This document shows, one piece after another, positions 12,168 to 63,710 of a stretch of 64,000 bases of DNA (positions within the stretch are counted from its first letter, which is position 1; every line of letters begins with the position of its first letter). Location of the stretch: positions 30,623 to 94,622 of the forward strand of contig BQKZ01000358.1 in NCBI GenBank assembly GCA_036244855.1. Reading direction: 5' to 3'. A model generated the notes under the pieces. It was not told the DNA's origin. It ran no database searches and worked only from the letters and a program-made list of their open reading frames with translations. The translations under genes were made by a program, and so were the position numbers. This DNA comes from Temnopleurus reevesii (taxonomy: Eukaryota; Echinodermata; Echinoidea; Temnopleuroida; Temnopleuridae).

Positions 12168-12337
12168 GGTATCTCGATGGTAGCTGGGGTGACGATGGTA
12201 CAACTGTCCCTTCTGGAGTACGACAACTCAGGGAGCCGATTGAGTAACGGAGACTGTTGCGATCCCGGCAGATCAGAAGTGTGCAGGGATAAGTGCGACA
12301 ATAGGTTTGAGATCTGCATCTCTCGTCCAGCCACAGG
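12168..12337 (+). CDS. Gene 1 exon: MNNL domain, part 1
   Basis: Starts after a TTTCAG acceptor in phase 0 and ends at GTAAGT after two bases of a codon (170 bp). It encodes VTMVQLSLLEY, then the paired cysteines GDCCD, then CRDKCDNRFEIC. This is the hydrophobic strand plus CC...C...C..F.(V/I)C pattern of the N-terminal domain of Notch ligands. It corresponds to gene 2 exon 47131-47297, which has the same phases. Confidence 0.88.
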
Positions 12338-13596
12338 GTAAGTAATAATACTTGAATTTATACTTCGGAATAGTCAATGTTCTTTGTCTACTGTTAACAT
12401 TACGTTAAAAATTTCAATAAAATATAAACTTGACGGAAATAGACTGTTCAGGAACATGAGGGTTAAAATAAATCAAATAAAAACTGTTTGAAATCGACAC
12501 TTTGTACCAACTGATGATATTTTCATCTATTACATTTGTTACACGGATAGTGCAATTATACGACATATGATTTTATGTTACATCAATTACTTATGTTGAA
12601 TGGGCTACCCCGGAACAATAAATAAATAAAAAATAAAAATGTGAGCGCAGGCAGTCTCTGGCCCGAGAAGGGGTCGGTTACCTTTATATTTTTGTACGCC
12701 CAATTATGACAATTTCCTTTTCTCTGTATCATCAGAGAGTAAATATGCAACGACTTGGCTCACAGATTTGGCGTAAGATATCAGCGTTCACTTGGGCCAA
12801 AAACGTAACTTAAAATGTAAAACCAATATATGATACAATTTGTTTAATTCAGTTGTCTCGCAACGACCTATAATGGGGTCACACACGCTTCTCCTGCATG
12901 TGTGATAAAGTGCTCTGATGCTGTGACAAATCCAAAATCTTAACTTAAAAGTCGATATAGTCTTATCTTTTCAGCCATGATTCATATTTCATAAGCCGTT
13001 TGTCATTTGTTATTCATGTTATCTAAAATTGTTGACTTCATTATTTTCTCGTTTTTATCAAATCATTTCAGGGATCTCGACATGTCATTATGTCATTTTT
13101 TCTCAGCGAACACATCGCTAATACTGGACAATACAGACCACGTACCATTCCCAGCATCTTTGCCGATGCAAGATGGCAGCACTCTGGGTAACCCGCTGAC
13201 CATTCCTATACCTGATGCATGGGTAGGTCAAGATTCTGACATCTTTTATTTACTCGTATACGATTTTCTTTTTAATAACATTTCTTTATTTGAGTAAAGT
13301 GGTCTTCTATAAATTCAGGGACATAGTGCGAATGCTCCCCCTTTCGAAATCTGAGCGAAATAAAGCTTATGGGTGCAAAAAAACTTACTTTTTTTTTGGG
13401 GGGGGGGGGGGGGTCGTGAAACCCAAGTGCGGACTTATTTTTGCTTGTCAGCTCATGGGCAAGATATAAGATAACGGCTTGCCAGACAATCTTTTTGAAC
13501 GCAACCCACTCTGAGAAAAAAGCTGGCGACGACCCTACGTCTTGATCTCTTGTAGCTACACTTTTATATAGTTAATGATTAATGATGATAATAATA

Positions 13597-13629
<33 letters not shown>

Positions 13630-13725
13630 ATGATAATAATAATGATAACAATGATAATAATGATGATAATAATAATGATAATAATAATAATAATGATAAT
13701 AATAATAATAATGATAATAATAATG

Positions 13726-13762
<37 letters not shown>

Positions 13763-15845: not shown

Positions 15846-15898
<53 letters not shown>

Positions 15899-18800
15899 TA
15901 CATGGATCTTATATAGCGTACTTTCTATTCTAATTAGATGCTCAAGGCGCATATTATCAAACAGAGACTGCTACCATGGGCAGAAAATGCGTGGCATGTT
16001 TGGTAAAATACATTTTCAACACTACTTCTCACATGGCGAATGTTCAATCCATGATCTTGATTAATTCGATTTCGTATGGGGCTAGGAAGGCATATCCAAG
16101 TGATATAAAGTATGTGTTTCCCATTAGACTCAATTAAATTCAATAAAGATGAGCCTCAAATTGATTTCGATGGTATTATGTTGCATGTATCGTGCAGGCG
16201 TGTTGATTCTCCATATTAGTCTATATACAATATATAATGTATATATAGGTTCATTAATAGGGATATCCTAATGGCATTTCTATTAAAATAATTTTGTTTC
16301 CTTTCATAGATGATAACAAAAGGAGTTGGGCACGATTTTGAAAATCACGACCATATAATAAGAGAGAGGGAGAGAGAGAGAGAGAGAGAGAGGAAGAAGG
16401 AGATGTCAGGATAAAACCTTCAGACAATCTGTATGCAGGACAGGGAGATAGGGACCAATGCGTCTTACAATAGGTTGGAATTTGGTTTAACGTGACATTT
16501 TGCAATCGTTCTTATAAATTTTGACTCTGTTAATATGTTGGATTATTTTACAGGCAGGAATACGAGCTAAGATACGCGTCTGGGATGTTGATAATAATGG
16601 TGAACAGGAGGTGGATATTGTGTCAAAAAGCATCAATTATTACCCGGATCCAAACCTCCAATACACCATCCAATGGAAGCCATTGCTATCAGGGACTGCT
16701 GATACGAGGTAACTGTTTGAATTGCTCTATGAACTTATCTTTACATTATTCTTTTTAAACAATGTTTGTCTGATATTGAAAATACCATAATGATAACAGA
16801 TATGGAAATTTAAATTTTGACAAATATGCTCACACCTACACGATTCCAGGTGAATTCAAGCTGCCATACATACGCATGGACACATACATGTAATCGTCCA
16901 TTCGTTAGTCCGTTCGTTGCATTTATATACTCCAACCCCCTCTCTTGCTGAGTTACATCCTTCGAAGAAAGACTCAGTTTTCAACTGAGTCAATAGAAAT
17001 GAAACACAGTTCTTATATGGGACGCATCACCTTTTCAGCAGAAACCGTCAAGCGTTCTAAAGTCAACGTAACATAATTACCTCAGATTTAGTAAGAGCAC
17101 GTGTCGGTCAGTTTTGAAATTCAATGAAATCATATTTCTGTCAGATACCATTCTCATCACCTCGGTTGAGTGCAAGACAATGCGAAGGAATTTCTTGTGA
17201 AAGGAAATTGCCGCCGTTCCCAGATGGGTAGGATTCGAAACGCGACCCTCTGCTTGAAAGGTATGAATCGGAACCACCGCACCAAGCAGCCACATTGGGA
17301 GATCAAACTTACAATATTATATTCTTTTCAACAGATTGAAGACAGCAATGAGAGTATACTGTGCGGATGGATATTATGGCCCACGGTGTCATGTCTACTG
17401 TGCGGATACCGACACCTACACATGCGAACCTTTTACTGGTAAAAAGCTTTGCGTGGCGGGTTTAGAAGGTACAGAATGCGATCAGGTGAGATTTGCTATG
17501 ATACTACATAAAACGTGTTTATCACATGAATGTAATATCATTATCATTTTGTAAACGCTTTACAATAACCAAGTGGGTATTTCCCATGATAATACAAAAA
17601 AAATCAGGAGTAGTTATTATACTGGTATCCTTTACATAAAACGGTAGTACTTTTAGTAAGGCCTTTACACGTTAATATTAGATAATGCTATTACAGCTTG
17701 TTTATAATCTTCAAGTACATCACTTTAAAAAAAAATATTATTATTATTATCAAATATCATTCATAATAAAGTAGATGCTCTGATTTATTTTCTCCCCAGG
17801 ACATTGCTGAATGTGCATCATCCCCTTGTCAGCAAGGGAGCACATGTGTAGACCTCTTAAATAGCTATCGTTGCGAGTGCATTGGAGGAACATATGGTAC
17901 GTTTTCAGTATTAAAAGCCATGTTTTTGCACCAATGGCAGAACTATGGTTCCTCAAGGAACGTTTGTCATTGCAGATAAACTTTTTAGTCGCTAAGATGG
18001 TTGATGGCGGTTTTGGTTGTCATATCAATAAATGTATCGCCGAATGACAATATAATGGTCAATATCATAATCATACAATTAGTACTTTCGCTATTTGACT
18101 TCGAATAGCTAATGTCACGAACACGCGTATTACTAAATTATACTATTTATCATTTTGAGTCTTGAAGCTTTGAAATACACTGGACCAAAAGTTTATTAAA
18201 TTTTTGTTGGGGGAAATACTGTTCCAGTATAATTGTAATGCAAATTGTGTTCCAGAGCGTTTTTCTAAGAGAGGAGGAAGCACAATCAGAGAACTAATCA
18301 TGTTTGAAAGGTCATTATAGATCCATAGTTATGTAAAACTCTACTTGAATGGGGTCGTCTAATAGTGCTTATAGAATATGTATAGTTATTTTGTCAGTGA
18401 AAAAATATGCTTACCATTCAAATAAATAAAAAGCACTTTCTGTCAAGAGTTAGTGAAAAAATAATCCTTTCGAAGTTTCTTTAGATAAAGGTAAATATCC
18501 TAATTACCTTCTTAAAATTAAATATCTTTTGATATTCTTCTCTATTTAAAATTTCGTTACAGGAACCCATTGTGAAAACAACCATAACGACTGTACCAGT
18601 GTGGTTTGCATGAACGGTGGGACGTGCCAAGACGAACTCAATGACTTTCAGTGCTTCTGTACGGCTAATTATGAAGGTCGCTTCTGTGAGTTGCTCATAG
18701 ATGAATGCGTGACAGATCCTTGTCAGAATGGTGCGACTTGTGTGGATGGAGTTCTCGAATACAGATGCGTTTGTCCTGCAGGCTTCGAAGGAAGAGACTG

Positions 18801-21800
18801 TGAAATCAACATCAATGAGTGTGCTAGCCTTCCGTGTTTAAACGACGGGACCTGTGATGATGAGGTGGCGGGTTTTGAATGTAAATGTGTTCCAGGATTT
18901 GTAGGGGACTTATGCCAGGTGAACGTCGATGAATGTGAGAGTATGCCGTGCAAGAACGACGGGGCTTGTATTGATCTTGTAAACTCTTTCAGGTGCGCTT
19001 GTACGGCCGGTTATGAAGGTACATTCTGTGAGGATAACATTGATGAATGCGTGTCGTCGCCATGTCAGAATGATGCCTCTTGTATCGACGGCTTAGCAAG
19101 CTATACGTGCGAATGTAACCCCGGATTTTCAGGAGTCCATTGTGAGATCAATATCAATGAGTGTTCGAGCAATCCATGTGAGAACCAAGGGATCTGTGAA
19201 GATAGGGTGAATTCATTTGAATGTACCTGTCAACCAGGATTTAACGGTACTCTCTGCGAAAATGACATTAATGAATGTAGCGGAGATCCGTGTCACAATG
19301 GTGGTTCTTGTCGAGACCTGGTAAACGATTTTGCCTGTGATTGTGTTGCTGGTTTTGAAGGAGCATTGTGCCTTACCAACACAGATGAATGTCTTAGTAA
19401 CCCATGTGATAACCAGGGCACATGTAACGATGAAGTAAACGAGTTTTCATGCAGTTGTGCCGCTGGATTCCGTGGGCCGTTCTGTGATGAAAACATTGAC
19501 GAGTGTGTAAGTCAGCCTTGCCTAAACAGCGCCACCTGCCAAGATGGTATAAATTCATTCACCTGTCAATGTAGAGACGGTTTTCATGGTTTGTTATGCG
19601 AAAGCAACACGGACGACTGTGCTATTAATCCATGCATAAACAATTCAACCTGTGTTGATCAGATCAATTCTTTTGTTTGTGTCTGTGCGGAAGGATTCGA
19701 GGGTATGTACTGCGAGGTCAACACTGATGAATGCCAAAGTAATCCTTGTCGTAATGAAGCAAGCTGCATGGATGAAATAAACGGTTACATTTGTCAATGT
19801 AAGGAAGGATTCGACGGGACCCACTGCATGATAAACATCGACGAGTGTTCCAGCAATCCTTGCGAGAACAGTGCTACTTGTATTGATGAGGTAAACGGGT
19901 TTATATGTAACTGCCCTGTTGGATTTGATGGTTTAACATGCGGGAATAACATAGATGAATGTGCTAGCCAGCCCTGTCTGAACGGAGCAAGCTGCATGGA
20001 TGGAATCAACGACTACACATGCAAATGTAATCCCGGTTTCAATGGCAGTCACTGTGAAATTAATATGGATGAATGTCACAGTTCACCATGCCAACATGAA
20101 TCAACTTGTATGGATGAGATCAACGGGTTTAGGTGTGAATGTACTGCAGGATTTGAAGGCATTCTTTGTGAACTTAACATTAATGAATGCACAAGTCGCC
20201 CTTGTTTGAACAATGGGGCCTGTGAGGACAGAATCAATGGCTACACATGTGAATGTTTACCAGGCTACATTGGAATCCATTGTGAAACCGACGTAGATGA
20301 ATGTAGTAGTATGCCGTGTCATAATAATGCTACTTGTATCGACGAGGTCAATAGTTTCCGATGCCAATGCAAACCAGGATTTGATGGGACACTCTGTGAT
20401 ATTGATACAAATGAATGTGCCAGCCTACCGTGTTTGAACATGGCCACCTGCCATGATATCATAGACGCTTACACCTGTGAATGCGCCCCTGGTTACAACG
20501 GCGTCCGCTGTGAAAATAACATTGATGAATGTGAGAGTTCACCTTGCCAACATGACTCCACCTGCATAGATGGGGTCAACGGTTTTACTTGTGAGTGCAC
20601 ACCTGGGTTCGAAGGAATCCACTGCGAAGTGAATATCAACGAATGTTCAAGTCAGCCTTGTTTGAATAGCGGCACGTGTCAAGATGGGATCAATGAATAC
20701 ACTTGCGAATGCGTTCAGGGATTCAGTGGTAGCAGATGCCAGGTTAACATAGATGAATGTGAAAGTTCTCCTTGCCAATATGGCTCGACGTGCGCTGATG
20801 AAATAGATGGATTCCGTTGCCAATGTGCAGCAGGATATGAAGGTACACTCTGCGAGATAGATATTAACGAATGCATTGGCAACCCTTGTGAGCATGGTGG
20901 CACGTGTGTAGATCTCATCAACTCTTACGAGTGTCATTGTGTGGATGGATGGGAAGGAGCCCGCTGTGATAACGACACCGACGAATGCCTTAGCAACCCA
21001 TGTCTTCATGGGGGAACATGCATTGATCAGATCGATGGGTTCCAATGTGCCTGCGTCCTTGGGTATACAGGGGTAAGATGTGAAACAGACATCAATGAGT
21101 GTTTGCAAGATCCCTGCTTACATAATGGCACGTGCCAAGATGAAATCAATGGCTACACTTGCCACTGCTCACCTGGATTCACAGGCAAGAAGTGTGAGGA
21201 AAACATTGATGACTGTTTAGAGAACCCGTGCCAACACAACGCAACATGCCTGGACCTTGTAAATCATTACGTATGCTTGTGCAGACATGGTTATGAAGGT
21301 TCGAACTGTGAGATTGACATTAATGAGTGCTTGAATGATCCATGTCTAAACAACGCGACATGCATTGATAAGGTAAATAACTTTGCTTGTGAATGCAAGC
21401 CTGGATTTGAAGGCCGTTTCTGCGAACAGGATACAGACGAATGCGCGAGTCGACCATGCTTGAACGGTGGAAGCTGCACTGATTTAGTCAATGGATATGG
21501 ATGTCTTTGTGATTCTGGTTACGACGGCATGAACTGTGAAGTGGATATCGACGAGTGCAGTCGTTCCCCTTGTCAGCATGGTGGGACTTGTCAAGATCTC
21601 ATCAATGAATTCCAGTGTTCATGTCCTGATGGTTACAGTGGGATATCATGTCAGCACAATATTGATGATTGCCTCTCTCAACCCTGCCAGAACGAAGGGC
21701 TTTGTTTAGATGGAGTTGCTTCATACCAATGCCGGTGTCTTCCAGGATTCGAGGGCATCAATTGTGAGATTAACATTCAGGAATGTGACTCGTCACCCTG

Positions 21801-26480: not shown

Positions 26481-27788
26481 CCCCGCGTTAAAAAGTTATG
26501 TTTCTTTCAATGTTGAGGGGGAGGGGGCGGCGAGAGGGAATTTTTGTTGTTGTGTTTATGTTTATCATATATCATGTATATGGTGCAATTAACTTACTGT
26601 GTAATATATACTCTACATGTATTTCATCGAAGTGTTTCGATTAAATAATAGCCTACGAATATATCTCGATAATTTTCAAATGAGCTTGTTCCAAAATTTC
26701 CAAACTTCCTGATATGGAGTAGTGCACCGGGGAAATGCAATTATAATTTCAATATCTAGCACCAAGATCTAGCCCACATACATGTTTGAATGAATATGAA
26801 GTTTGTTACAGCATATAATTTGCGGTTTAATAAGTCTAATAAATGTCTTAAAAGGTAAGAAAGGAGGATAATCCACTTCAAAAACAAAATTGATTGCATT
26901 ATCACGTAGGCCCAATCTCTCCTTCTATAAATGCCTCGTTTTGACATAAAATGTAACCAAATTGTGTATGTAAATAGTTCGTATCTGTAAATATCTGAAA
27001 TATTTTGTATTTGTAAAGAGACCAAATTACCAAAAGTTTTAGATCAGTATTTATTGAGATGATTGTATTTGCAAGGTTAGATGAATTTAGAAAAACACCG
27101 TCGAAGGTTTCTGTTATGTAATTATGTGGATATTGTAATTATATTTTGATTGATATTAGAGAAAGAGCTATACATTTATCCCAATATGTTTGATAGATAT
27201 CTAGATTTAAAAGGGTTTGTGTCGTTGGTTTTCGTGTTACCATATATGCACTGTGAGTAGAAGGGACAAAGAGGTCGGATAAATTAAAAAAAATTAAGCA
27301 TTCACAAAAGCGCTATGCATGCGAAATAATCTCCTTCCCTCTTATTGTGTTGAGAAATGTCGAACGTGTGTCACACATGCTCGCTGAATCAACAAGGAAA
27401 CTACTTTCTTGTGTGCGCATATAGCTTTTGTGAATTTTTTGTGAATGGTAGTAATTCATCTTGTCCATTTAATTTGTACTTCTGTTCACAGTTATGTTAT
27501 ATATCGTTTGAAGTAGACGTACATGTATACGTACATGTATTATTGTCACTGCTAGTTTAATCTTGTTAAAATCTCTTATTCAATGCCTAATCAGACCATG
27601 TTAATTACTGACCAAGTTCTGAATGTTTTTTTCAACTAAGCTCAGATACCTTCAAATGAAATTGGCATATTGGCGTATTCCACTGCATTGTAGACTTAAA
27701 TCTCTTCCTCTAATCGCAATTGCAAGGCATTCATAATTGGACCAGATAGAATATCATACCACTTCTCGTTATAAACATGATATAGTAA

Positions 27789-28279: not shown

Positions 28280-28619
28280 GTAAATTTGGTATCAGGGTGA
28301 AATCTGTTTGGCATATCATCTGATGCCTCGACCCTACACAATGGGGGCCAACTTTTTATACAGGTGCTATATTCCTACCCAATTGCACATACAGAATACC
28401 ACTATAATTGCAATCATTCTGCTGGACTTTCCTCTCTAAGAAAAATCATCTTGCGGTCACAGATATATAGCTGCATTGCCATTCCTTGATCTGACCCAAC
28501 TCTGAAAAGCACGACATTATAAATCATGGAAATGGGACTAATGAACTGACTTCCAACTTGACATGTATGCGAAATTCTTTCTACGTAGTCTACGAGTTCA
28601 GATGGGTAGCAATATGTCA

Positions 28620-31619: not shown

Positions 31620-31620
31620 A

Positions 31621-31667
<47 letters not shown>

Positions 31668-39179: not shown

Positions 39180-39218
39180 ATGAGGGTCCTGCAGCTTACT
39201 TTGATCTTTCTCCTTCAG
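39180..39218 (+). CDS. Gene 2 exon 1: signal peptide start
   Basis: ATG followed by [13 protein letters not shown] and a consensus donor CAG|GTAAGT in phase 0. Joined to the next exon it gives a hydrophobic core ending IIIATEA, a good signal-peptidase site after residue 20, placed directly before the MNNL strand. The fit to the exon at 47131 is the main reason to accept this exon 8 kb upstream. Confidence 0.82.
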
Positions 39219-46555: not shown

Positions 46556-46596
<41 letters not shown>

Positions 46597-49500: not shown

Positions 49501-52500
49501 AAGCGATCTTCAACAGCCGAGTCCCTCTCAGTACAAGGCAGTTGACCTAGAGGAGATGGAATTGATCGCTTCTACTGTGACCTTTTGACAGGGGACATCA
49601 TCTGCCATGCTGAATATACGAATCATCACAATTATCACCACCACCATCACTACCACTAACATCACCACTATCAACATCGTCGCCATCACCATCACCATCA
49701 TCACATCCATTGTTTGATGGCTATAGATTGAGATGGATGTGCTTTAATGGCTTAACTATCATTCAGATGCCTGGAAGCACAATATGGTTAACGAGAAGTA
49801 CATCGATAATGACTTTGTCCTTTCAATGTGTCCCTATCATTAAAGTTCTATTTAACTCAACGTATTAAAAACATTTAATCTTCTTCAGGAAATTGATGAA
49901 TGCGTTTCAGGACCCTGTCAAAATAACGGAACGTGTCATGATGTGGTGAATGGTTACTGGTGTACCTGTCAGGAGGGAACTACCGGTGAGTTACATTCTA
50001 TTATTCTGTATAAGAGTAAATTAAATTGACACACAATGTCAACATAGAATTAGAAGAAATTGAGTTAGTACACACATTAAGCAGAACGTACAAACAAATT
50101 GGACAGATTACACAGCTCCCATACGATTATTCACAATAGCTGTTGAATAAATAGTAAATAAATGAATAACACGATGTTAACTATTTCCGAAAAGTTAACT
50201 CGAAGGCAAACAGTAGATCCGTACACCGTGTATTCAACACGGTACCGATTTCAATAGCATTACAAAAGGCCATTGAAATTGCGTTTGACTTTACTTTTCG
50301 AAAATACTTTATATCGTGTTGAATGAATTTTTCCTTATTTTACGAAAAATTGTCGGACAGGTGTCGCACCTTCGATAATCACATCGGTTAATCTTTGATA
50401 AAACATGTTTGTCAGTTGAAACATTTATATCGCTGATAACTTATTATATTTATGTACTATATTTACGAAATAATGAAAATTGTTTTCACAGGTAATGTGT
50501 GTCAAAAGAACCCCGATGACTGCTTACGTCACGAGTGCATAAACGGAGCATCGTGTGTTGATGGGTATGCAGATTACACATGCATCTGCCCACCTGGATT
50601 CAATGGCCGATATTGCGAGTTCAACATCAATGAATGTGCCAGCTATCCATGTCAGAACAGCGCTATCTGTTCAGACGGAATCGATGGATACATATGTCTT
50701 TGTGTTCCTGGATACACTGGAAGCCACTGCGAAATTAACATTGATGAATGTGCTAGTGATCCTTGCTTCAACGGTGCAAGTTGTATTGATAGGGTGAAAA
50801 GGTATAACTGCAGATGCATCAAAGGATATGAAGGGGTGCACTGTGAAGTGGACATAGACGAGTGTGCCAGTGATCCCTGTCAACATGGGGCAACCTGCAA
50901 GGATGAAGTCAATGGATTTGAATGTGTATGCAATCCGGGATATCAGGGAAAGTTTTGCCATGTAAACATAAATGAATGCAAGAGTAGTCCATGTTTGAAC
51001 GGCGCCAGCTGCTTAGATGGAATCAATGGATACAACTGTAGTTGTGTCCCTGGGTATGATGGCATACACTGTGAGGTCAACATTGATGAGTGTAGCAGCA
51101 GTCCTTGTATCCATGGAAGCACCTGTAATGACCTTGTGAATAGGTATCGATGTGATTGCCTCCCAGGGTATGAGGGAGACGAATGTCAGATTGAGATAGA
51201 CGAGTGTCAGAGTGATCCTTGTCAGAATGAAGCTCCGTGTGTTGATATTGTTAATGGTTATCTTTGTGAATGTCTACCTGGATATGAAGGAGTACAATGT
51301 GAGACAGATACGGATGAATGCCATAGTAGCCCATGTCAAAATGCCGGTAGCTGTTTGGATAGAGTCAATGGATACGTCTGCGAATGCGTTGATGGCTTTG
51401 AAGGAACTAATTGCGAAATAAACATAGATGAATGCGAAAGTGGACCTTGCCACAACCAAGGAACTTGTGAGGATCGAGTTAACGGCTATACTTGCACCTG
51501 TATGCCAGGATTCACAGGAGTGGAATGTGAAATCAACGTAAACGAATGTGCTAGTTCCCCTTGCAAAAACGATGGGTCTTGTGTAGATCAAGTGAATGGT
51601 TACATCTGTGAATGCACTCCTGGATATACTGGCGTCTTGTGTGAAATAAACATTGATGAATGCGCTTCATCCCCTTGTATGAATGATGCAACCTGCACCG
51701 ATGAGGTTAATGGATACACATGCACTTGTAGTCCAGGATACACCGATATACACTGCGATGTTGAAATCAACGAATGCGCTAGCGTCGTTTGCCAATACGG
51801 CGGGACATGTGTTGATTTAATCAATAGATATGAATGTATCTGCTCACCTGGATATAATGGATTACAATGTGAAAATAATATCGATGAATGCGCTAGTGAA
51901 CCGTGTCAACATGGCGCCACTTGTGAAGACCGCGTCAATGCATATCAATGTAACTGCGTGTCCGGCTACGAAGGAGTGGACTGTGAAATTGACATTGATG
52001 AGTGCTCCAGCTCACCATGTGAGAATCGTGCAACTTGTGTGGATAGGGTCAATGGATATACATGCACATGTCTCCCAGGATACGAAGGTGTGCATTGCCA
52101 GATCAATATTGATGAATGTTCCAGCAACCCTTGTGAAAATGGTGCGCTCTGTGTTGACAAGGTCAACCAATATCGGTGCAAATGTAAGGCAGGATACACA
52201 GGAATACACTGCGAAACTGAAGTTGATGAGTGCTCGAGCAATCCTTGCGAAAACAATGGTCTGTGTGTGGATAAGATAAACGGATATACATGTGAATGTG
52301 TTCCAGGATATACAGGGACACACTGTGAAGTAAACATTGATGAGTGTGCTAGCTCACCCTGTCAAAATGAAGCGACTTGTGAAGATGGTATCAATCAATT
52401 CAGCTGCATCTGTCTACCAGGTTACAAAGGACCAATATGTGAAATTAACATTGATGAATGTGGAAGTAATCCGTGTTTGAACAATGCTACATGCCAGGAC

Positions 52501-55500
52501 GAAATAAATAGATATAGTTGTTTGTGTGTTCCTGGATTTGAGGGTGTGCACTGTGAGACAAACATTGATGAATGTTACTCTGACCCCTGTGCCAATGGTG
52601 CTTCTTGTATGGATGATGTCAACGGCTATACATGTGAATGTGCTCCTGGTTATGATGGTGTCCACTGTGAAAATGACGTCGATGAATGCCACAGTTCTCC
52701 GTGTTTGAATGGTGCTCAATGCATTGACCGAGTTAACCGATACAGGTGCAAATGTCTACCCGGATATGAAGGTACTCATTGTGAGGTTGATATTAATGAA
52801 TGTGAGAGCGATCCGTGTTTGAACGGCGCTTCGTGCGTAGATGAAGTCGACCACTATGTTTGTATCTGCATTCTGGGGTTTGAAGGAGTTACGTGTGAAA
52901 CCAATATAGATGAATGCAGCAGCAATCCATGTCAGAATAATGCCACGTGTGTGGATCACATCAACCGATACACATGTGACTGCTTACCAGGATTTGACAG
53001 CGTACATTGCCATGTGGATATAGATGAATGTGCAAGCGACCCGTGTCAACATGAATCCATTTGTGATGATCAGATCGATAGGTATCAGTGCCACTGCCGT
53101 CCTGGATACAGGGGAATCCATTGTGAAAGCGAGATCGACGAGTGTCAAAGTAACCCCTGTCTTCATGGTGCAACCTGCATGGATAAAGTCAATCGTTATA
53201 AATGTAAATGCTTGCCTGGATACTCAGGTGACCACTGTGAAGTAAACATAGATGAATGTGAAAGTTCACCTTGTGAAAATAACGGGATATGTGAGGACCA
53301 TGTCAACCATTATACTTGCCTGTGTCAACCAGGATTCAGTGGGCGAGTTTGCGAGGTCAACATTCAAGAGTGCAACAGCAATCCTTGTATGAACAATGCC
53401 ACTTGTAATGATGGTATCAATGAATACCAATGTGACTGTCATTCTGGTTTTGAAGGAACACACTGTGAGGTGAACATTGACGAGTGTGGATCAAATCCTT
53501 GCCAATATGGATCAACATGTTATGATGGGATTAATGGCTATACCTGTAACTGTGCTCCAGGGTACATTGGCCTCCACTGTGAACAGGAAGTTGATGAATG
53601 CGAGAGCTTGCCTTGCCAAAACGATGCTAGATGCGTGGATCGTGTAAATGGATACCACTGTAGATGTGTTACAGGGTTTATTGGTATTCACTGTGAAACT
53701 GAAATCAATGAATGTGAATCAGGACCATGCCAGAACGGTGCGACTTGTCTTAATATGGTTGGGAGATTCGTTTGTACATGTACACCAGGATATAACGGTA
53801 CACACTGTGAAGTAAATATTGATGAATGCGAAAGCTCTCCATGTATGAATGGGGCTACTTGTAGAGATGAAGTCAACGGATACACATGTGAATGTGTAGA
53901 TGGATATGATGGTATACATTGTGAATCGGAAATTAACGAATGCTCAAGTAGTCCATGTCAGAATGGTGCTCTCTGCTCCAACCTTGTCAATGAATATGAA
54001 TGTATCTGCAAAGCAGGCTTTACCGGTGTCCATTGTGAGATAGATATCGATGAATGCATCAGCGGACCTTGCATGAACAATGCAACTTGTGTCGATCGTG
54101 TCAATAGATATAAATGCAAATGCGTCCCAGGATATGAAGGAACGCATTGTGAAACTAACACCGATGAATGTAAAAGCCTACCATGTCAAAATAATGCAGT
54201 TTGTGTGGATGAAATCAACCAGTTTTCTTGTCAGTGCCTTCCTGGATTCGAAGGCACTCTCTGTGAAGTAAATATCGATGAATGCAGTAGCCTTCCATGC
54301 CAGAACAATGCAACCTGTCTAGATCAAATCAATGGATACTCCTGTGCCTGTCTTCCTGGTTTCGAAGGAATTCATTGTGAAACAAATATTGATGAGTGCT
54401 CCTCATCTCCGTGTCAGAATGAAGCAACATGTACAGACGCCATTAATGGTTTCTACTGCGATTGTTTATCAGGGTACGTAGGGATACACTGTGAAACAGA
54501 CGTCGATGAATGTTCAAGTGGTCCATGCCAAAACGGGGCGCTTTGTGTCGACCGAGTGAACAAATATAAATGTCGATGTTTGGACGGTTTCGAGGGAACA
54601 CACTGTGAGATTAATATCGATGAATGTGAAAGCAACCCATGTCAAAATGATGCTACCTGCATGGATATGATCAATGGTTTCGAATGTACCTGCGTTCCTG
54701 GATTTACCGGTTTAATTTGTGAAACAAACATAAATGAGTGTATAAGCGAGCCGTGCCTTAATAACGGAACTTGTGTAGACTTAATTGATGGATATAGATG
54801 CCTTTGTCTTGATGGGTACAATGGGCGGCATTGCAATAATGACATTGATGAATGCGATAGTAGTCCTTGTTTGAACAATGCTACATGCATTGATCTTGTT
54901 GACAGATACGAGTGTCGATGTAAACCTGGATATGAAGGAGTACATTGTGAAGGGGACATCAACGAATGTTACTCTTTCCCATGTGAAAATGGTGCGACGT
55001 GTATAGATATGATTAACGGTTACGATTGTGAATGCCTTCCAGGATACGAAGGGATCCATTGTGGGATAGAAACAGATGAGTGCGAAAGCAATCCATGTCA
55101 AAACGCGGGAACGTGTGTCGATCGAATCAACAAATACAAGTGTAAATGTAGGGCTGGATTTGAGGGAAATGAATGCCAAGTTGACATAGATGAATGCAGC
55201 AGTGATCCATGTACTAATGGTGCGTCTTGTTGGGACGTTATCAACGGATTCGTATGTGAATGCGCTGAAGGATATGATGGAATACACTGCGAGATCAATA
55301 TTGATGAATGCGAAAGCGGTCCTTGTGAAAACGGTGCTACGTGTGTAGATGAGGTCAATGGATATACGTGTACCTGTGATTCCGGATTCGAAGGCACATT
55401 CTGTCAGATAAACATCGATGAGTGTGAAAGTAGCCCATGCTTGAATGGAGCAAGCTGTCTTGACAAGGTAAATGGGTACAGGTGCCAATGTGCAGAAGGG

Positions 55501-58500
55501 TACGATGGAATTCTGTGTGAGATCGACATCGACGAGTGTGCATCTTTACCTTGTCAAAATGGTGGTCGATGTGAAGACATGGTGAACGCTTATACCTGTC
55601 ACTGCGAAGAAGGTTTCGACGGAATACACTGTGAATATAACATCAACGAGTGCCTCAGTAATCCATGTTTGAATTCGGCGACCTGTTTGGATATGATCGC
55701 TGGATATCTTTGCGAATGCAGCCCGGGTTATACCGGTGTCCACTGTGAAACTGACATTGATGAATGTACTAGATCTCCTTGTGCGAATGGAGCAACATGC
55801 ATGGATGAGGTTAACGGGTATAGATGTTCATGCGCTCCCGGCTATAAAGGTGTCCTCTGCGAAGTGGACATTGACGAGTGTGCCAGTAGTCCATGCCAGA
55901 ATAACGCTACATGTGTGGATAAAGTTGATAGATATAAATGTATATGTGTTGCTGGTTTTCGGGGAAAGGAATGTCAAACTAACTATGATGAATGCACTAG
56001 CAATCCCTGTTTGAACAATGGTCGGTGCGAAGACGGTGTGAATGACTACATATGCCATTGCCAACCAGGATATACCGGCATTCTCTGTGAAACAAATATC
56101 GATGAATGCGAATCATCCCCATGTGAAAATAAAGCCTTATGCATAGATCATGTCGACGGTTTTACCTGTGATTGTATGGATGGTTTCGATGGAACCTTCT
56201 GCTCAAATGATATTGACGAGTGTTTTAGTGATCCGTGTTTGAATAACGGAAGCTGCTCTGACTTAGTAAATGGCTTTGAATGCAGTTGTGTACCAGGATT
56301 TGAAGGACCAATATGTGAAGCAAACATAAATGAATGTCGAAGTAACCCATGTCTTAACAATGGAGAGTGCGTTGATTACATCAATAAGTATTTCTGCCAA
56401 TGTGCTGCAGGATACGAAGGAGTACAGTGCGAATATGAAATTGATGAATGTGCTAGCAGTCCTTGTCAGAATGATGCCGACTGTCAAGATCGAGTTGATG
56501 GCTACCATTGCGAATGCGTTCCCGGGTATGAAGGTACCCACTGTGAAATAGACATAGACGAATGCTCAAGTCAACCGTGTCTTAACAGAGCTACTTGTCG
56601 CGACATGATAAATGGATACGAGTGTCTGTGCAGAGACGGCTATGACGGGGTGAACTGTGGAAATAACATAAACGAATGCCTCAGTGATCCTTGTTTTAAT
56701 CAAGGAACCTGCAAGGACAAGGTCAATCGATATAAATGCTTATGTCAGGATGGGTTTGAAGGAGTCCACTGCGAAGTAGATATTAATGAATGCACGAGTT
56801 ATCCTTGTGTGAACGCGGGCTTATGTTTTGACCAGGTGAATGGCTACCAGTGTTCCTGCCAACCGGGATTTACTGGTGAACACTGCGAATTAGAAATCAA
56901 CGAATGCAGCAGTGAACCGTGTCAAAACAAAGCGTCTTGCGTTGATTTTGTTAACAGATATGAATGCGAATGCAGACCTGGATATAAAGGCCTTCACTGT
57001 GAAATTGACATAGATGAATGTGGGAGTAATCCCTGCTTAAACGACGCAACATGCATTGATAAAGTGAACCGGTTTCGATGTTCCTGTGCTCCTGGCTACA
57101 CCGGGGAGTTGTGTGGAATAGATATAAACGAGTGTCAGAGTTCCCCGTGCCAAAATGATGCAAGATGTCAGGACCAGGTCAATGGATATATGTGCATATG
57201 TCCTTTTGGATTTGATGGACGGCATTGCGAAGTTAATATTGATGAATGTGCAAGCTCCCCTTGCCAGAACGAAGGACAATGCATAGACAGAGTAAACGGC
57301 TACGACTGTCAATGCGAAGCGGGTTTCACCGGAACGGAATGCGAAACGAATGTGAATGAATGCTCAAGCAATCCTTGTCAGCATGATTCGGAGTGCATGG
57401 ATGAGGTCAATGGATACATATGCATATGCAGCCCTGGTACAGAAGGTATACACTGTGAAATTGACATCAATGAGTGCATAAGTCAACCATGTGAGAATGG
57501 AGCGAGGTGCAAAGACCAGATGAATGGTTATAGATGCCGATGTTCAACCGGGTTCGATGGTGTACATTGCGAAATCAACATAGATGAGTGTGGGAGCTCA
57601 CCGTGTCAGAATATGGCATCTTGCCTGGACGCTGTGAACGGATATTCCTGCAATTGTCGGCCAGGATTTACAGGAACACATTGTGAAGTGAATATCGACG
57701 AATGTGCAAGCGACCCGTGTGAACATGGAGGCATGTGTAGGGATCAGGTCAATAGATACACATGCCAATGTCCTGCAGGATACGATGGCAGTCGTTGTGA
57801 AAATGATATCGATGAGTGTGAAAGCTCCCCTTGTCAGAACGGAGCAGACTGCACAGACTCCATTGATGAATATACATGTGAATGCTTAGATGGATACTCT
57901 GGAACGAATTGTCAGGTTGATATTGATGAGTGTGCCAGCCAGCCATGTAGGAATGATGGAAGATGTTATGACAAGACCAATGGATACAGTTGCTCCTGTG
58001 CTGCTGGCTTTGAGGGAACTCAGTGTCAAATCAATGTGGATGAATGCAACAGTTCACCATGTCAGAACAGAGGGTATTGCAGAGACCAGATCAATTCATT
58101 TTTATGTGACTGTGATGCAGGATATGAAGGGACCTTCTGTGAAATCAATATCGATGAGTGCGCTAGTAATCCATGTGAATATGCCTCTACCTGCTACGAC
58201 AAGATCGACGGATATGGGTGCGAATGTCTTCCCGGTTACTATGGAGTGCACTGCGAATATGAGAGAGATGAATGCCTGAGCGAACCATGCGGACATGGTG
58301 GGAAATGCATTAACGAGATAGACAGATTTACTTGCAACTGCTCAGCTGGATATGAGGGGATAACTTGTGAAATTGATATAGACGAATGCCACAGTCAACC
58401 ATGTCAAAATGAGGGAATTTGCTTTGACAGAGTCGATGGTTATGACTGCAAATGCGTTGATGGATATGGTGGAAAGGATTGCCAGTTTGATATTGATGAA

Positions 58501-61500
58501 TGTGCTAGTGATCCCTGTCAGCATGGTGCTACTTGCAATGACTTTGTAAATGGATACACCTGCACATGCCGGGTTGGTTTCGAGGGTACTTTTTGTGAAA
58601 CGAATATCAACGAATGTGCAAGCAACCCTTGTTCAAGCTATGGGCGGTGCGTGGATGGAATTAACGGATACCGGTGCCGATGTAGACCTGGCTTCATGGG
58701 TCGTCTTTGTGAAATCGACATTGACGAATGTCAAAGTAATCCATGCTTACATGGAAGTAGGTGAGTCGATGGCCTAAATGGATACAGGTGCCTGTGCAGA
58801 GCGGGCTATCAAGGGTTCCGCTGCAGAGATGAAGTGGACGAGTGTCTCAGTAACCCATGCTTGAATGGCATATGCCTTGACAGACTAAATGGATATCGCT
58901 GTCATTGCATCAAGGGATTTTATGGTAGAAATTGTGGAATTAACAGAGATGAATGCGACAGCGAACCTTGTCTAAATGGTGCTACATGCCAAGATGGAAT
59001 TGACAATTATTACTGCGAATGTCCACCAGGATACGAAGGAATCCACTGTGAAATCATAACCGACGAGTGCCAGAGTAGACCGTGTATGAACGGTGCAACC
59101 TGCGTTGATGGTTTTAAGGAGTATACCTGTAAATGCATCCCTGGGTTCGAAGGTAACAACTGTGAGATAAACATAAATGACTGTGCAAGTAATCCATGTC
59201 AAAATCGAGCTACTTGTCTGGATGGTATTGAAAGCTACTCATGCCAATGTGTCCTCGGTTACAGAGGTGAACACTGAGAGATTGAAATCAACGAATGCGA
59301 CAGTCAACCCTGTAAGAATGATGGAACATGTCTTAATGGTGTGAACAGTTTCTTTTGCTACTGCCCACAGGGCTACGAAGGTTGGTTGTGTGAGATAGAA
59401 ATAGATGAATGTGAAAGCAATCCTTGTCTTCATGGAGGAAAATGTAAGGATGTTACGGCCGGATTCACCTGTCAATGTGAAGATGGATTCAATGGAACAC
59501 GGTGCGAGACAGTTCTTGATCAGTGTAAACTCAACCCATGCTACGGAAATGCTACTTGTGTTACCAAGGATAGCAATTTCAAGTAAGTGCGAGATAAAGT
59601 ATAGGGAAGGATTTTACCTTTCGGACTCTACAAAGTCCAAATAGTCGAAGAAAATGTCTAAAGTAAAAATATATTTCATGATAAGAAATCAGATAGTCTA
59701 TGCAGCATAATGTAAATTGTTATATTCACTACAATTTTCTTGTCTTGTTTTCAGTCTTGGAATCATGTGATAATCTAAATGCACGACTATTTCAGACGTT
59801 TAATATTATGACATCAAGTAGTCTATACAGTCTAATGTAGATTATTTACCTCGCTACAGTTGTAAGAATCGTTAAATCATGGGATGATAAAAAAGCATGA
59901 ATGCTTCAGGGAATTGATAATTACAAAAAAGAAATACGTTATAAAGAGCATAATATCCATATGAACTATATGTTTTATTTTTAGCTGCCTCTGTCCTCCT
60001 GGGTATTCGGGGCCAGATTGTGCCGACTATGACGAAGAAGGATGTGGGTCAATAAAGTGCTTCAACGGTCAGTGTCTACTCGACAAAAGAAGAGAATATA
60101 TGGTGACATACATCTGTCAATGTATTCGTGGATTCATCGGAGTCGAATGCGACACATGTGAGTGATGTTTCTCATACAATACATATTCTAAAATGAATTA
60201 AAAGACAAAAATATTAATAAATAGACAAAAAAGAATACTTATAACAACTTGGGATAATACCGGTTTTCTCATTCTGTCATTAATTAGAATGTTTCAGGCC
60301 AGTAATGAATTTCAATTTTCCCAATACAGTCTTGTCTGAAAAAATAAGGAATGTATGATATCAGCATTGCTCAAGCAATTCCATGAACACTGTAAAATTG
60401 ATAAGACTGCAAATTGAGATGAAGACGGTCATAGGAAAGTATTACATAATGCGGTTGGTGAAGAGTAAGACATTAACCATTCCATCTCTTTCTATTTCCT
60501 CCTCTCTTCCTCTTGATTCCTTACTCTTAATAATTGAAGATGTACCGAACATCACTGCAAGCGTGTTGATTGAGGAGAAACACACTCAACTGAGAGAACT
60601 GGAATACAAGATGAAGGAAGTCTTAATAGAAGCCATGGAGACAAGCGAGGACATGCATAATTGTTCCAATGTGGACATCTCTATAATAGATAGTACCACG
60701 GGCAATGGAGCTTTATCAGGGTAATCATGACTCAATAAACTCAGTGACAAATCCTAACTAGATCTTCATTTTACCCATTCTTATTAGGGAAGCATGACAT
60801 TCGACATCTCTTTGACACTTCTAAAATGATTGGATAAGAGATAACACATTCAAGTAAACTTTATTCTTTATTGTCTGCTTCTTGGATATTATGAATCAAA
60901 TTTGAAGGCCCTGTATTCATAAGTCCATTGAACAAGCTTGTCTGTCGCTTTATCAAAAATTGAAGATGACACTTTTTTTTGTATTGAGATATGTAAGCGA
61001 TCGAAATACAATAAAACCTAAATCAAGAATACAGGCTTTCATAGATGACGCTACTTACTTGCTGTAAAAAGATTAAAATTCAACACTAATATATTTTACT
61101 CAGATGAAAAACAAATAAAATATCATGATGCAAAGTACAGAATAAATATTTAAAAAATTGTGTAAAAGGAATTGTGGAGAAAAATATTGGCGATACAATT
61201 TAAAAAAGACATATAAGTATGGTCCAGTATCTGAGGTCTGCACCTTTTCTCATTACCAAATAGAGTACCGTGATGAATAAACTATAAAGTTGAAAGGCAA
61301 TTCGTTGCTTTGCCTATGATTTGTGGTAATGATCTGGATGAAGACAATATATTATTATATAATAGTATATTATATCATATTATATTATATTATATATGAT
61401 ATTTTAGTTTTTGTGATTTCACCTTTAAACAGGATGGAATACACGAACGTAACGATCTACGCCATGCTGGATGATAAGCCCGCCGATCGGGACGCCCTTT

Positions 61501-63710
61501 CACTGATGTTGAGAGCCCTACCTCCTTCCCATGTCAACAAACTGATCCACCCGTATCGCATCTTTATCGACAAGAAGGTCCCGAACGATGTGAAGACAGA
61601 AATCAGCATCAACAATGATGTTAAGAATAATACGAAAAAGAAGGTACGGGACTACTATACGAGTTTGAATTAAGTCCTTTTGGTTTTCCCTTTTCAGAGA
61701 GATTCTTTAATAGACGTGCACATCGTCAACTCTACATGTAGAGAAAATTGGGCAATATGCTGTCAACTCATTTTGTTAATAAAAGAAGCTACCCACTTCT
61801 GTTGTTTTGGCCTTACGGACTAAATCAAAACTATAATGATCAAAATAGTATAGTCGGTTGGAAATATTCTAACCAATAGTTATGTGGAGGGTATGTTTCC
61901 AAGAGTTGGGTAAGCTTGTGCACAATTTTTTTTTAAAAAGTTGAATTTTAGGCTTGCAAACAAAATATTTATGATATTGGTGCAATAAAATGTTACATGT
62001 TACCACCAAATGTGAAATAGTGTTGGCAAGCATCCCAATCGGTATTAATGGCTTGATATGAAGGGTAGATTGCAAAATTGGTCCGGAAATTTCAATGTTC
62101 GGTTCGTTACCTGTTTATTGTTCTATAGGGAATAGTTTGGGAAGTCTTCATGACGTAAGTTTGAACGGTGAATCATTCCCATGGACTCAAAGGCTTTATG
62201 TTGTTATAGGCTGTCTAATACAACCTGTCCTCCCCATGCGCTGTTTTGATTCTGTCTGAGTAAGGAGGGCGTGAAGGGTCAAACCAAATTCGTTAAGAAT
62301 TAACCTAAAATGCGCACCCTCCCGATCCGACACTCTAGTGACATCCATGATACCTCCGACTCATAAATTCACCCTTAAAGTTACAACTTTCTAGACATGA
62401 TACACCTAAAAGATGCGAACATGACGTGGGAAGATGGAACGTTTTGTGTTCGGGAAAGGAGGTTATGAAGGGGAGAAAATCAAAACCATTTCGAACATAT
62501 TGAATTCATGCGGAAGGGACGTTGTCATGGAAACGCAAGACAACACTTCCTCGTTCGTTGATCCCCAGTTCCCTAGAATGATCATAATATCATGTAGCTT
62601 CCGACTGCTCGTCTTTATCAGATCCATCGAAAATTTAGGATAAGATCCAAACCTTATGTGGTATATCGCCTAAATACAAAAGCGTAATGAGTAAGGTCTA
62701 ATCACCAATAAGAATATTAATCACTATAGCTACCTGCGTGGTTGATTATAAACTTCCGCTTTACGCATTTATCATTTCTATATTGTCTTATCACTGCGTC
62801 ATCAAGACAATACAATTGGGTATCCAGGTTTTTGTATGTACAAATAAGAGCGTCCATAGAGGTAAAGGCCAACTCACCCCTTTGCGTTTTTAGCATGCGT
62901 CGGTTTAACGGTTTTGAAAATTAAAAACGCTCCATGTACGCTGATCAGACCTGACGTTCGGCTTGCGCTGAAGGAGCGTACGCCGTGTAAGTCGGCCTTA
63001 AGACGCGGTATTGCGGTGGATTATGTTGAAATTGTGTTTCTTTATATTCAGGGATAAATTCATGCCGTTCCAGAAATAATCTAAATAAATGCCCTTATAA
63101 AACAATGTATTTTCAAGATGCAAAATATAAATGTCACATATTCGACTTCACCGTTCGAACGTAACATTACAGGGACGACTGGACCAACCGGTTGACTGGA
63201 CCGAGGCCAAGGGGGTTGCAGGATCCCCTTGCCCACCTTTCCTTTTTTTAAGTAAGCCTATGCGACTGTGTAAAATGGTATTACACATCCACACCTACTT
63301 TTCAAAAATGATCCGCTAAGCTCACATAACTCGGAGGACTTCTTGTTTCTGTAAGGTTAAAAATATTTGTTTTCTATAATCAAAACAGACCAAAATAAAA
63401 TTTTTTTTAAAAAAGGTTAAACTATTTTAGTATAAACTGTGCTAAAAGTCGATAGCTGTGTGCAGTGTATTAAAGTATACGACGTCACAATTCAATCTCT
63501 GCTAAGATGGTTGAACTACAAAGAGCACTAACGTGACGTTTTGCTTGATTTGTAAGAAAAAGGAAAAATTTTCTACTTGATATTCATGAATGTGTTTCCT
63601 TTTTATCCCATCAGTCATGGGGACAGCAAAATTGGTATGTCTTCTTCATCATTATCATCCTCGTTGGAATTGGAATCGCAGGAGCTGTGGTGTACGTCGT
63701 TAGGAGGTAA
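39180..63710 (+). CDS. Gene 2: giant DSL-domain membrane protein with 82 EGF repeats (spliced)
   Basis: Eleven exons: 39180-39218, 47131-47297, 47753-47891, 48484-48644, 49166-49328, 49889-49985, 50492-59582, 59985-60157, 60540-60720, 61433-61643, 63615-63710. They join in phase to 3505 codons if two internal TGAs (58762, 59275) are read through. Order: signal peptide 1-20, MNNL/C2-like to 168, DSL to 223, 82 EGF repeats to about 3343, juxtamembrane region to 3474, membrane segment to 3505. This is a Notch-ligand layout enlarged far beyond Delta or Jagged. As stacked calcium-binding EGF units, the protein could reach some 200 nm from the cell (inference). A donor at 58761 would give a 3231-residue form without either stop. 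If neither splicing nor recoding applies, the gene is a truncated or dead allele. Confidence 0.85.
41157..41218 (+). repeat. Possible tRNA-derived SINE fragment
   Basis: GGTGGTAGTGGCTCTGACTC followed by CAACCAGAGGGTCACTGTTC and AAATCCCAACC resembles A and B boxes of a tRNA-like head. It is not intact enough to call a tRNA gene. Confidence 0.4.
42640..43090. repeat. AAT/ATT-rich region with TATATAGCGC core
   Basis: A short AAT tract at 42640 is followed by CACTTTTATATAGCGCATAA, a core shared with 11.1 and 15.9 kb. Imperfect ATT/ATC runs occupy about 42875-43085 and create low-complexity open frames in several frames. Confidence 0.7.
43496..43518. repeat. Poly-T tract
   Basis: About 23 consecutive T residues. 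Confidence 0.95.
44714..44765. repeat. ATT then AGT trinucleotide repeat
   Basis: A (ATT)n tract passes directly into (AGT)n and back toward ATT. Confidence 0.85.
46547..46592. repeat. (CA)n microsatellite
   Basis: About 21 CA units with one TA interruption. Confidence 0.95.
47131..47297 (+). CDS. Gene 2 exon 2: end of signal peptide and MNNL part 1
   Basis: Begins after TTCACAG in phase 0 with IIIATEA, then [20 protein letters not shown], the paired cysteines GVCCDG, and [12 protein letters not shown]. The CDNxFEIC motif is identical in pattern to gene 1. Donor GTAAGT after two codon bases. Confidence 0.88.
47753..47891 (+). CDS. Gene 2 exon 3: MNNL part 2
   Basis: Encodes [16 protein letters not shown] and on to [15 protein letters not shown] and IEDWQ. 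CPYGKxKT matches the C.YG...T segment of Notch-ligand N-terminal domains. NST is a potential N-glycosylation site. Phase 2 in, 0 out. Confidence 0.86.
48484..48644 (+). CDS. Gene 2 exon 4: end of MNNL/C2-like domain
   Basis: Encodes [20 protein letters not shown] through basic [10 protein letters not shown] to GEGSSR; phase 0 in, 2 out, donor GTGAGC. The basic stretch before the DSL domain is absent from gene 1. Confidence 0.84.
49166..49328 (+). CDS. Gene 2 exon 5: DSL domain
   Basis: Six cysteines in canonical DSL order: [42 protein letters not shown]. The CRPR.D...H..C loop of functional Notch ligands is present, although the aromatic that follows the acidic residues in Jagged/Delta is a glycine here. 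163 bp, phase 2 in, 0 out. Receptor contact is inferred from the family. Confidence 0.93.
49345..49445. repeat. (TCA)n microsatellite just after the DSL donor
   Basis: TCA/TCATCA runs start about 16 bases after the GTATGT donor. They keep the frame open with Ser/His-type codons, so the open frame beyond the donor is not evidence of coding. Confidence 0.9.
49543..49700 (+). pseudogene. Partial duplicate of the gene 2 DSL exon inside intron 5
   Basis: 49543-49620 repeats 49234-49310 with few changes (GACCTAGAGGAGATGGAAT, then TTCTACTGTGACC and GGGGACATCATCTGCCATGC). It lacks the 5' half of the exon, the last cysteine and the donor. The following TCA-rich repeat was duplicated with it, giving an offset of about 310 bp. 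Confidence 0.85.
49889..49985 (+). CDS. Gene 2 exon 6: EGF repeat 1
   Basis: 97 bp, phase 0 to 1, encoding [20 protein letters not shown] and [13 protein letters not shown]. It has the DxDEC calcium motif, the O-fucose site CQNNGTC and the N-glycosylation sequon NGT. Confidence 0.92.
50178..50326. repeat. Interspersed repeat, copy C
   Basis: Related to 9786-9965 and 11526-11680 (AACTATTTCCG, ATAGCATTACAAAAG, TTCGAAAATACTTTATATCG). It lies in the intron directly before the giant EGF exon. Confidence 0.55.
50492..59582 (+). CDS. Gene 2 giant exon: about 80 tandem calcium-binding EGF repeats
   Basis: A 9091 bp intron-free exon, phase 1 in, phase 2 out (GTAAGT at 59583). Repeats of about 38 codons follow (I/V)(D/N)EC-x-S-x-PC-x-N-x-(A/G)-(T/S)-C and then D..N.Y.C.C..G(Y/F).G.(H/L)CE. 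Calcium-binding, Asn-hydroxylation, O-glucose (CxSxPC) and O-fucose (Cx4T/SC) motifs recur in most repeats. One repeat near 58861 has a loop one residue short (CLNGIC). The frame is open from 50492 to 58761 with no frameshift. TGA codons at 58762-58764 and 59275-59277 then replace cysteine 3 of one repeat and cysteine 6 of a later one, with EGF coding continuing in frame after each. Confidence 0.92.
58761..58766 (+). promoter_or_regulatory. Candidate internal splice donor overlapping the first TGA
   Basis: GTAG|GTGAGT: the six intronic bases are consensus. Splicing from 58760 (phase 2) to the acceptor of exon 59985 (which supplies one base) keeps the frame. It would remove 822 bp (274 codons) that contain both TGAs, at the cost of an EGF hybrid with five cysteines. 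Use of this site is an inference. Confidence 0.4.
59985..60157 (+). CDS. Gene 2 exon 8: last EGF repeats
   Basis: Completes the split repeat with [12 protein letters not shown], then a divergent final EGF with [11 protein letters not shown] and [12 protein letters not shown]. Phase 2 in, 1 out at GTGAGT. The fit to gene 1 exon 22536-22705 is good. Confidence 0.87.
60540..60720 (+). CDS. Gene 2 exon 9: juxtamembrane region, part 1
   Basis: 181 bp like its gene 1 counterpart. Encodes [20 protein letters not shown], an amphipathic helix ([17 protein letters not shown]), then [11 protein letters not shown]. One cysteine (HNCSN), two N-glycosylation sequons (NIT, NCS). Acceptor is TTGAAG, weaker than the others, but phase and length support it. 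Confidence 0.78.
61433..61643 (+). CDS. Gene 2 exon 10: juxtamembrane region, part 2
   Basis: Encodes [20 protein letters not shown], then [10 protein letters not shown] and a basic, Asn-rich end [11 protein letters not shown]. The first part aligns with gene 1 (YTNxTxY.M..D(R/K)P); the last 13 or so residues are extra. Phase 2 in, 0 out at GTACGG. Confidence 0.84.
61644..63614 (+). other. Gene 2 intron 10
   Basis: No coding sequence recognised. A small inverted-repeat element lies at 62863-63001. The frame at 62434-62643 has no recognisable domain. Confidence 0.6.
62863..63001. mobile_element. Small GC-richer element with imperfect terminal inverted repeats
   Basis: Left TAAAGGCCAACTCACCCC and right end GTGTAAGTCGGCCTTAA are imperfect reverse complements. 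Interior GGAGCGTACG and AAACGCTCC also pair. No coding capacity. Confidence 0.5.
63615..63710 (+). CDS. Gene 2 last exon: membrane segment and stop
   Basis: Phase-0 start after CATCAG; 31 codons: SWGQQNW, a hydrophobic helix ([18 protein letters not shown]), YVVRR and TAA. The stop is at the same codon as in gene 1. The bases AG|GTAAAT at 63705-63712 also form a fair donor, so a longer form with a cytoplasmic tail encoded beyond the window cannot be excluded. Confidence 0.75.
   Translation, partial: SWGQQNWYVFFIIIILVGIGIAGAVVYVVRR

Follow-up and report, generated by a model that had tools for sequence, protein, structure and literature searches.

Two neighbouring genes of the echinoid Temnopleurus reevesii, here called gene 1 (G1) and gene 2 (G2), encode proteins in which the MNNL and DSL domains of the Notch ligands stand at the head of very long arrays of EGF repeats, and which end almost directly behind a membrane helix. 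Both genes lie in a 64,000-nucleotide stretch, referred to below as the window, that spans positions 30,623 to 94,622 of contig BQKZ01000358.1 (C358; 215,234 bases, 47,726 of them N) in an assembly of 558,132,977 bases and 10,433 contigs. We propose, with a probability of about one half, that G1 and G2 belong to a divergent DSL subfamily, for whose members activation of Notch through endocytic pulling would be unlikely. The gene models, and the wider family in which we place them, are predictions from genomic sequence.

Both genes lie on the plus strand of the window and are split into ten coding exons each. These exons are bordered by AG/GT, agree in phase with one another, and were all found with the lengths and phases given in the initial annotation. 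In G1, exon 1 (12168..12337, 170 bp) encodes the first half of MNNL, exon 2 (13072..13222, 151 bp) continues the domain and exon 3 (16554..16708, 155 bp) holds the end of the MNNL region; exon 4 (17335..17485, 151 bp) encodes DSL and scored 31.9 bits in a search of the organism's own genome. The first EGF repeat begins in exon 5 (17800..17896, 97 bp), the bulk of the array lies in the open frame of exon 6 (18563..22070, 3,508 bp) and the final repeats in exon 7 (22536..22705, 170 bp), while the two halves of a juxtamembrane region are encoded by exons 8 (23031..23211, 181 bp) and 9 (23708..23879, 172 bp), and the membrane helix, with the C-terminal end VYVACR-stop, by exon 10 (24472..24567, 93 bp plus the stop codon). 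Exons 1, 2, 3, 5 and 7 were placed by their borders and phase, together, for exon 1, with the Pfam match of the spliced protein. The order in G2 is the same: MNNL in exons 1 (47131..47297, 167 bp; first half, from the Pfam match of the spliced protein), 2 (47753..47891, 139 bp) and 3 (48484..48644, 161 bp; end of the region), DSL in exon 4 (49166..49328, 163 bp; again found in the own-genome search), the start of the first EGF in exon 5 (49889..49985, 97 bp), the bulk of the array in exon 6 (50492..59582, 9,091 bp), the final repeats in exon 7 (59985..60157, 173 bp), the juxtamembrane region in exons 8 (60540..60720, 181 bp) and 9 (61433..61643, 211 bp), and the helix, with the C-terminal end VYVVRR-stop, in exon 10 (63615..63710, 93 bp plus the stop codon). 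Here exons 2, 3, 5 and 7 rest on borders and phase. Spliced, G1 gives 1,616 residues before the stop in a frame that is open throughout, and G2 gives 3,492 codons, two of which are in-frame TGA codons in exon 6.

Neither ten-exon model includes a start codon. A scan of the whole of C358, on both strands, for short exons that combine a full-consensus donor with an ATG and a hydrophobic stretch returned two candidates, one before G2 (39180..39218, plus strand, with the donor CAG|GTAAGT), which is a putative signal-peptide exon, and the other, MTSVWIFSLLLSLQ, before a third gene of the same kind (G3). These criteria were chosen after other scans (the strictest gave none, a looser one 25 candidates), and the count of two is therefore partly post hoc.

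The presence of both head domains, as first annotated, was upheld by Pfam profile searches of the spliced proteins, in which MNNL (E=3.3e-12 in G1, E=1.2e-9 in G2) and DSL (E=5.7e-6 in G1, E=1.4e-11 in G2) all exceeded the curated cut-off. A profile of the two heads, run against the PDB, matched chains of Delta, Jagged-1, Jagged-2, DLL1 and Serrate, 12 of them at E<=0.01, the best being fly Delta (E=3.3e-19). A protein database search with the MNNL-DSL part of G1, in which 0 of 558 candidates reached E<=0.001, had no positive control and carries no weight. Counted by their cysteine-spacing pattern, the EGF repeats number 33 in G1 and 82 in G2, in agreement with the initial annotation and with its description of a stalk much larger than that of an ordinary Delta or Jagged. 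From the Pfam scores and the uninterrupted stretches of 1,168 codons in G1 and 2,774 codons in G2 that appear in the open-frame list, the presence of MNNL, DSL and EGF is plainly beyond chance.

The arrays are regular, with a repeat length of 32 residues in 32 of the 33 repeats of G1 and 80 of the 82 of G2, and a lead of the calcium-binding type, judged by a consensus, in 27/33 and 63/82 respectively. At the DNA level the two most similar repeats of G2 have an identity of 0.73 and the median is 0.58, with no outstanding lag, and a recent tandem expansion of this array was rejected accordingly. The short-loop (DOS-type) pair of EGF1-2 that is present in Jagged1/2, Delta and DLL1 (PMC3415683) does not occur in G1 or G2, and by eye the Delta of Temnopleurus does have short-loop EGFs after its DSL. 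Since the DOS motif is absent from DLL4 too (PMC6986876), its loss alone does not exclude membership of the Delta or Jagged families.

A genome search with PF01414 (DSL) gave eight matches, all over the cut-off: three on C358, two on contig C1097, two on C449 and one on C2441. The match on C2441 belongs to an ordinary Delta, in which DSL is followed by short-loop EGFs and the membrane helix by 162 residues. The other seven, which lie in three clusters (C358, C1097 and C449), share a DSL sequence type and an exon layout, with from about 10 to 82 EGF repeats. The initial annotation described a tandem pair; G1 and G2 are indeed in tandem, but they stand in a row of at least three on C358 and among seven such genes in the genome. 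The third of the row, G3, has an MNNL exon at contig position 126072, 31 kb beyond the end of the window, exons of 164, 139, 158, 157 and 97 bp, a 2,430-bp EGF exon, 21 EGF repeats by the same pattern, a juxtamembrane region like that of G1 and G2 and the C-terminal end WYLDK-stop. The remaining four were assembled as stretches only, and their repeat counts are lower bounds in which repeats across exon joins are missed: at least 20 in C1097A (in two large frames), at least 7 in C1097B (about 10 by eye), at least 31 in C449A and at least 17 in C449B. The family is thus not uniformly giant. In all seven genes DSL has its own exon behind a phase-2 intron, where Temnopleurus Delta has a single exon for both sides of the junction, and the 97-bp exon follows DSL in six of the seven (it is not in the C449A piece). 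Identity over MNNL-DSL is 34-38% among G1, G2 and G3, and the 34% between G1 and G2, with their matching exon phases, makes these two duplicates of one ancestor, as had been claimed, and ancient ones. None of the eight DSL matches was recognised as a Jagged, but the whole-genome MNNL search, which picks up Delta and G1 only, misses the MNNL of G2, which is present, and the absence of Jagged from the genome is therefore not implied. Of 30 homeodomain matches in this genome eight loci were read, and several posterior Hox exons among them, together with one other exon, resemble ambulacrarian, probably echinoderm, Hox genes. Mitochondrial COI gave no match, and neither did molluscan haemocyanin, in a search where no control matched either.

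All three tandem genes on C358 show partial copies of head exons. Directly upstream of G1, at 11708-12057, the 5' part of exon 1 is repeated in tandem with a 177-bp period, in as many as three incomplete and decayed copies. In G2 a partial copy of the DSL exon, 80 bp at 93% identity, lies in the following intron (49541-49620), and by eye a stop has replaced an arginine codon in it and the exon end is lost. The second MNNL exon of G3 has two extra copies upstream of the intact one, at about 127619 and 127838 of the contig; in a splice scan only the last, intact copy has usable splice sites. The second intron of G1 also holds a 222-bp trinucleotide array of the TAA type (13580-13801).

At the other end of the proteins, G1 and G2 stop a few residues past the helix, which was located by eye, and as modelled they lack the cytoplasmic tail of a canonical DSL ligand. 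The number of residues after the helix is equally small in G3, C449A and C1097B, is 14 in C1097A and about 17 in C449B, and compares with 162 in Temnopleurus Delta. Between the EGF array and the helix lies an unnamed juxtamembrane region of about 115 residues, common to four members of the family; over this region and the helix G2 is 27, 24 and 19% identical to G1, G3 and C1097A, respectively. No Pfam family matched the region above the cut-off, and a pair of side matches of its pieces to ATG27 (E=0.017, below the cut-off and over the helix) was dropped as an effect of composition. Against the PDB the two juxtamembrane sequences gave no match up to E=10, and the best of another search had E=0.76. 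Strands and helices follow one another in an order that is SEA-like by eye only; a SEA domain gained no support, there being no Pfam SEA match, no PDB match under E=0.76 and only a shuffle-level score in an hhalign comparison with one SEA sequence. No VWC match was found in the two C-terminal pieces searched, a search that left out exon 7.

The separation of these genes from Delta and Jagged is seen in an unrooted tree built from DSL and the last part of the MNNL region (12 rows, 109 columns), in which the seven family members were set against Temnopleurus Delta, fly Delta, DLL1, JAG1 and JAG2. The split between the seven rows and the five has a support of 100/100, in a tree where the row of C1097B is less than half filled and that of G1 is long, and of 84/85 with DSL alone; the seven group with neither Delta nor Jagged. 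The suggestion in the initial annotation of a distinct architecture outside the named families gains from this separation, but loses some of its force in that as many as 75 EGF repeats are already in print for a Delta (PMC2770060).

Residues F199, R201, R203, D205 and F207 of Jagged1 make up the Notch-binding face of DSL (PMC3415683). By alignment, none of the five is kept in G1, G3 or C1097A, two are kept in each of C1097B, C449A and C449B, and three in G2 (the equivalents of R201, R203 and D205), as in Temnopleurus Delta; the equivalent of Phe207, present in that Delta, is absent from all seven family members. The tails of Notch ligands drive the ubiquitin-dependent endocytosis that activates the receptor (PMC5675594, PMC12577249, PMC11887331, PMC1965462). 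From the missing tail and the lost binding residues we infer that the usual mode of Notch activation would not be open to these proteins, and the initial annotation's label of 'ligand' can be no more than provisional for proteins without the endocytosis tail and with the binding face largely gone. That they are nonetheless ordinary activating ligands with a long reach seems improbable to us: such ligands would have the MNNL-DSL head and the membrane anchor that G1 and G2 do possess, but this account is at odds with the absence of a cytoplasmic tail and of a short-loop EGF1-2 pair and with the loss of key residues.

A more credible alternative, though one that we consider less likely than our proposal, is that the proteins are no longer Notch ligands at all and serve as EGF-rod proteins of adhesion or recognition, at the cell surface or, if cleaved, in the extracellular matrix, with MNNL-DSL binding some other partner. 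The complete loss of the key DSL residues in G1, G3 and C1097A and the absence of a tail would fit such a role, as would the existence of seven copies so divergent, since fast divergence and copy number suit recognition. On the other hand, MNNL and DSL still score above their cut-offs, and G2 retains its three binding residues.

The two in-frame TGA codons of G2 mean that the 82-repeat protein cannot be read directly from the DNA. The first (58762..58764, plus strand) falls on the third cysteine position of EGF 74 of 82 and the second (59275..59277, plus strand) on the sixth cysteine position of EGF 78. The other 80 repeats have lost no cysteine and the array has no frameshift. The first TGA overlaps a donor-like TAG|GTGAGT (58758-58766), the only AG|GTRAGT in the 9,091-bp exon, and a cut there leaves phase 2, as does the normal end of the exon. 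With the predicted join 58760|59985 the frame stays open throughout and encodes 3,218 residues, with 74 EGF repeats by the same cysteine pattern. On this prediction the likeliest form of a live G2 would lack both stops, the segment that holds them (58761-59984) being spliced out, and would have about 74 EGF repeats left; a dead gene, a polymorphic gene or a sequence error are possible alternatives. Acceptors within the array that might rescue EGF repeats after the first TGA were also considered and set aside: four in-phase AGs 3' of the second TGA all have poor pyrimidine tracts, and none restores a regular six-cysteine EGF.

It is possible, if rather unlikely, that G2 is a pseudogene or null allele and its array a relic, G1 being the live gene. 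The two nonsense codons are what such decay would leave, and single stops occur in two paralogue arrays as well, a TAA in C1097A (L026:2705-2707) and a TAG in C1097B (L027:1044-1046), neither of them accompanied by a frameshift or placed at a cysteine. Yet the splice sites of G2 are intact in all ten exons, its first stop coincides with the in-phase donor, and no frameshift or further lost cysteine is seen in 82 repeats whose sequence allows 2.1 cysteine-missense changes per nonsense change. As a rough yardstick, the matches that lack an internal stop in the Temnopleurus genome are 28 of 30 for the homeodomain, 8 of 8 for DSL and 2 of 2 for MNNL. That both TGA codons replace cysteines is not strong evidence either way, as the probability of hitting a cysteine codon twice with two random nonsense changes is 0.09. 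The same coincidence is the one feature that recommends readthrough, or selenocysteine at EGF cysteine positions, an explanation we reject as highly improbable: the paralogue stops are TAA and TAG and lie off the cysteines, and no SECIS element was matched at the Rfam cut-off in the 64-kb window, nor was one among the matches at E<=10 of C358:90001-100000, which covers 5.7 kb 3' of G2.

Several points weigh against a living subfamily of tailless DSL proteins and against the G2 splice in particular. The scan of C358 found no signal-peptide exon for G1, and in any of the genes an additional exon 3' of the helix exon is possible. One EGF is reduced to five cysteines by the predicted splice of G2, whose donor is one of three sites in the exon that score 8/9 on a nine-position donor count, on which the natural donors of G1 and G2 score 6 to 8. 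The in-frame stops of C1097A and C1097B make decay or sequence error possible in the family. Finally, the binding residues kept in G2 (3/5) and in C1097B, C449A and C449B (2/5) match or approach the 3/5 of Temnopleurus Delta, a level of retention that leaves room for Notch binding.

If the subfamily is as we propose, an EGF rod stiffened by calcium would display the MNNL-DSL head far off the cell surface, and the protein, with the tail for ubiquitin-driven endocytosis missing, would exert no pull on Notch. Any binding to Notch would then block, buffer or cis-inhibit the receptor, and some members, such as G1 with none of its five key residues, would probably have switched from Notch to another partner; roles as decoys or cis-inhibitors, or in adhesion, are thus possible ones. 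We would go further only tentatively, to a third DSL class beside Delta and Jagged, of tailless, membrane-anchored proteins whose EGF arrays equal or exceed those of the receptor in size and which have a juxtamembrane domain of their own. This class would comprise the seven genes in three clusters and act either in surface recognition, as a set that evolves fast, or as built-in decoys for Notch, and the length of the array might be tuned by duplication and by conversion of array exon to intron. In the prevailing view, Notch ligands work by a pull on the receptor that comes from endocytosis driven by their tails. Tailless DSL proteins that occur naturally in several copies, with a stalk exceeding that of the receptor, would allow DSL action without pulling, whether as decoy, cis-inhibitor or adhesion molecule, to be addressed, and with it the distance from the membrane over which a DSL head remains active.

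The remainder of the window also holds repeats of other kinds. A dispersed repeat occurs in two or three copies of 77-86% identity (15507-15755, 28036-28284 and 31334-31461) with inverted copies close by (15187-15364 and 27786-27893), and resembles a transposon remnant. Nested, palindrome-like inverted repeats at 30204-30790 have arms of 164 nt at 92% and 122 nt at 89%.

In the open-access literature, represented mostly by titles and abstracts, we recognised no description of a DSL protein that combines a giant EGF stalk with the lack of a tail. The two properties are separately in print, a very large number of EGF repeats in a 'Delta' (PMC2770060) and an early-terminating DSL ligand (PMC8166818), and size alone is not new. 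The survey of Gazave et al. (2009, PMC2770060) gives 0 to 75 EGF repeats in Delta, 12 to 18 in Jagged and seven Delta copies in Lottia, and an expansion of DSL genes is reported in lophotrochozoans (PMC8166818). With Jagged/Serrate, whose EGF array is longer than that of Delta (PMC2770060), G1 and G2 share the MNNL-DSL head, but they have no tail, no VWC in the pieces searched and a separate place in the tree. Delta is closer in plan, with MNNL, DSL, EGF repeats, one membrane helix and, as in the C-terminal pieces of G1 and G2, no VWC; however, it averages 7-8 EGF repeats in deuterostomes (PMC2770060) against the 33 and 82 found here, and G1 and G2 fall outside the Delta rows of the tree and differ in having no short-loop EGF1-2, no cytoplasmic tail, an extra juxtamembrane region and a separate exon for DSL. 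Going by its description, the 'Delta' for which Gazave et al. give 75 EGF repeats is, like our two, a DSL protein with a giant EGF array. The molluscan Delta2 resembles G1 and G2 in terminating about 1-10 residues past an arginine downstream of the helix region (PMC8166818), and is set apart from them, again by description, in that its architecture is conserved with Delta1 and that it arose within the molluscs by late stops.

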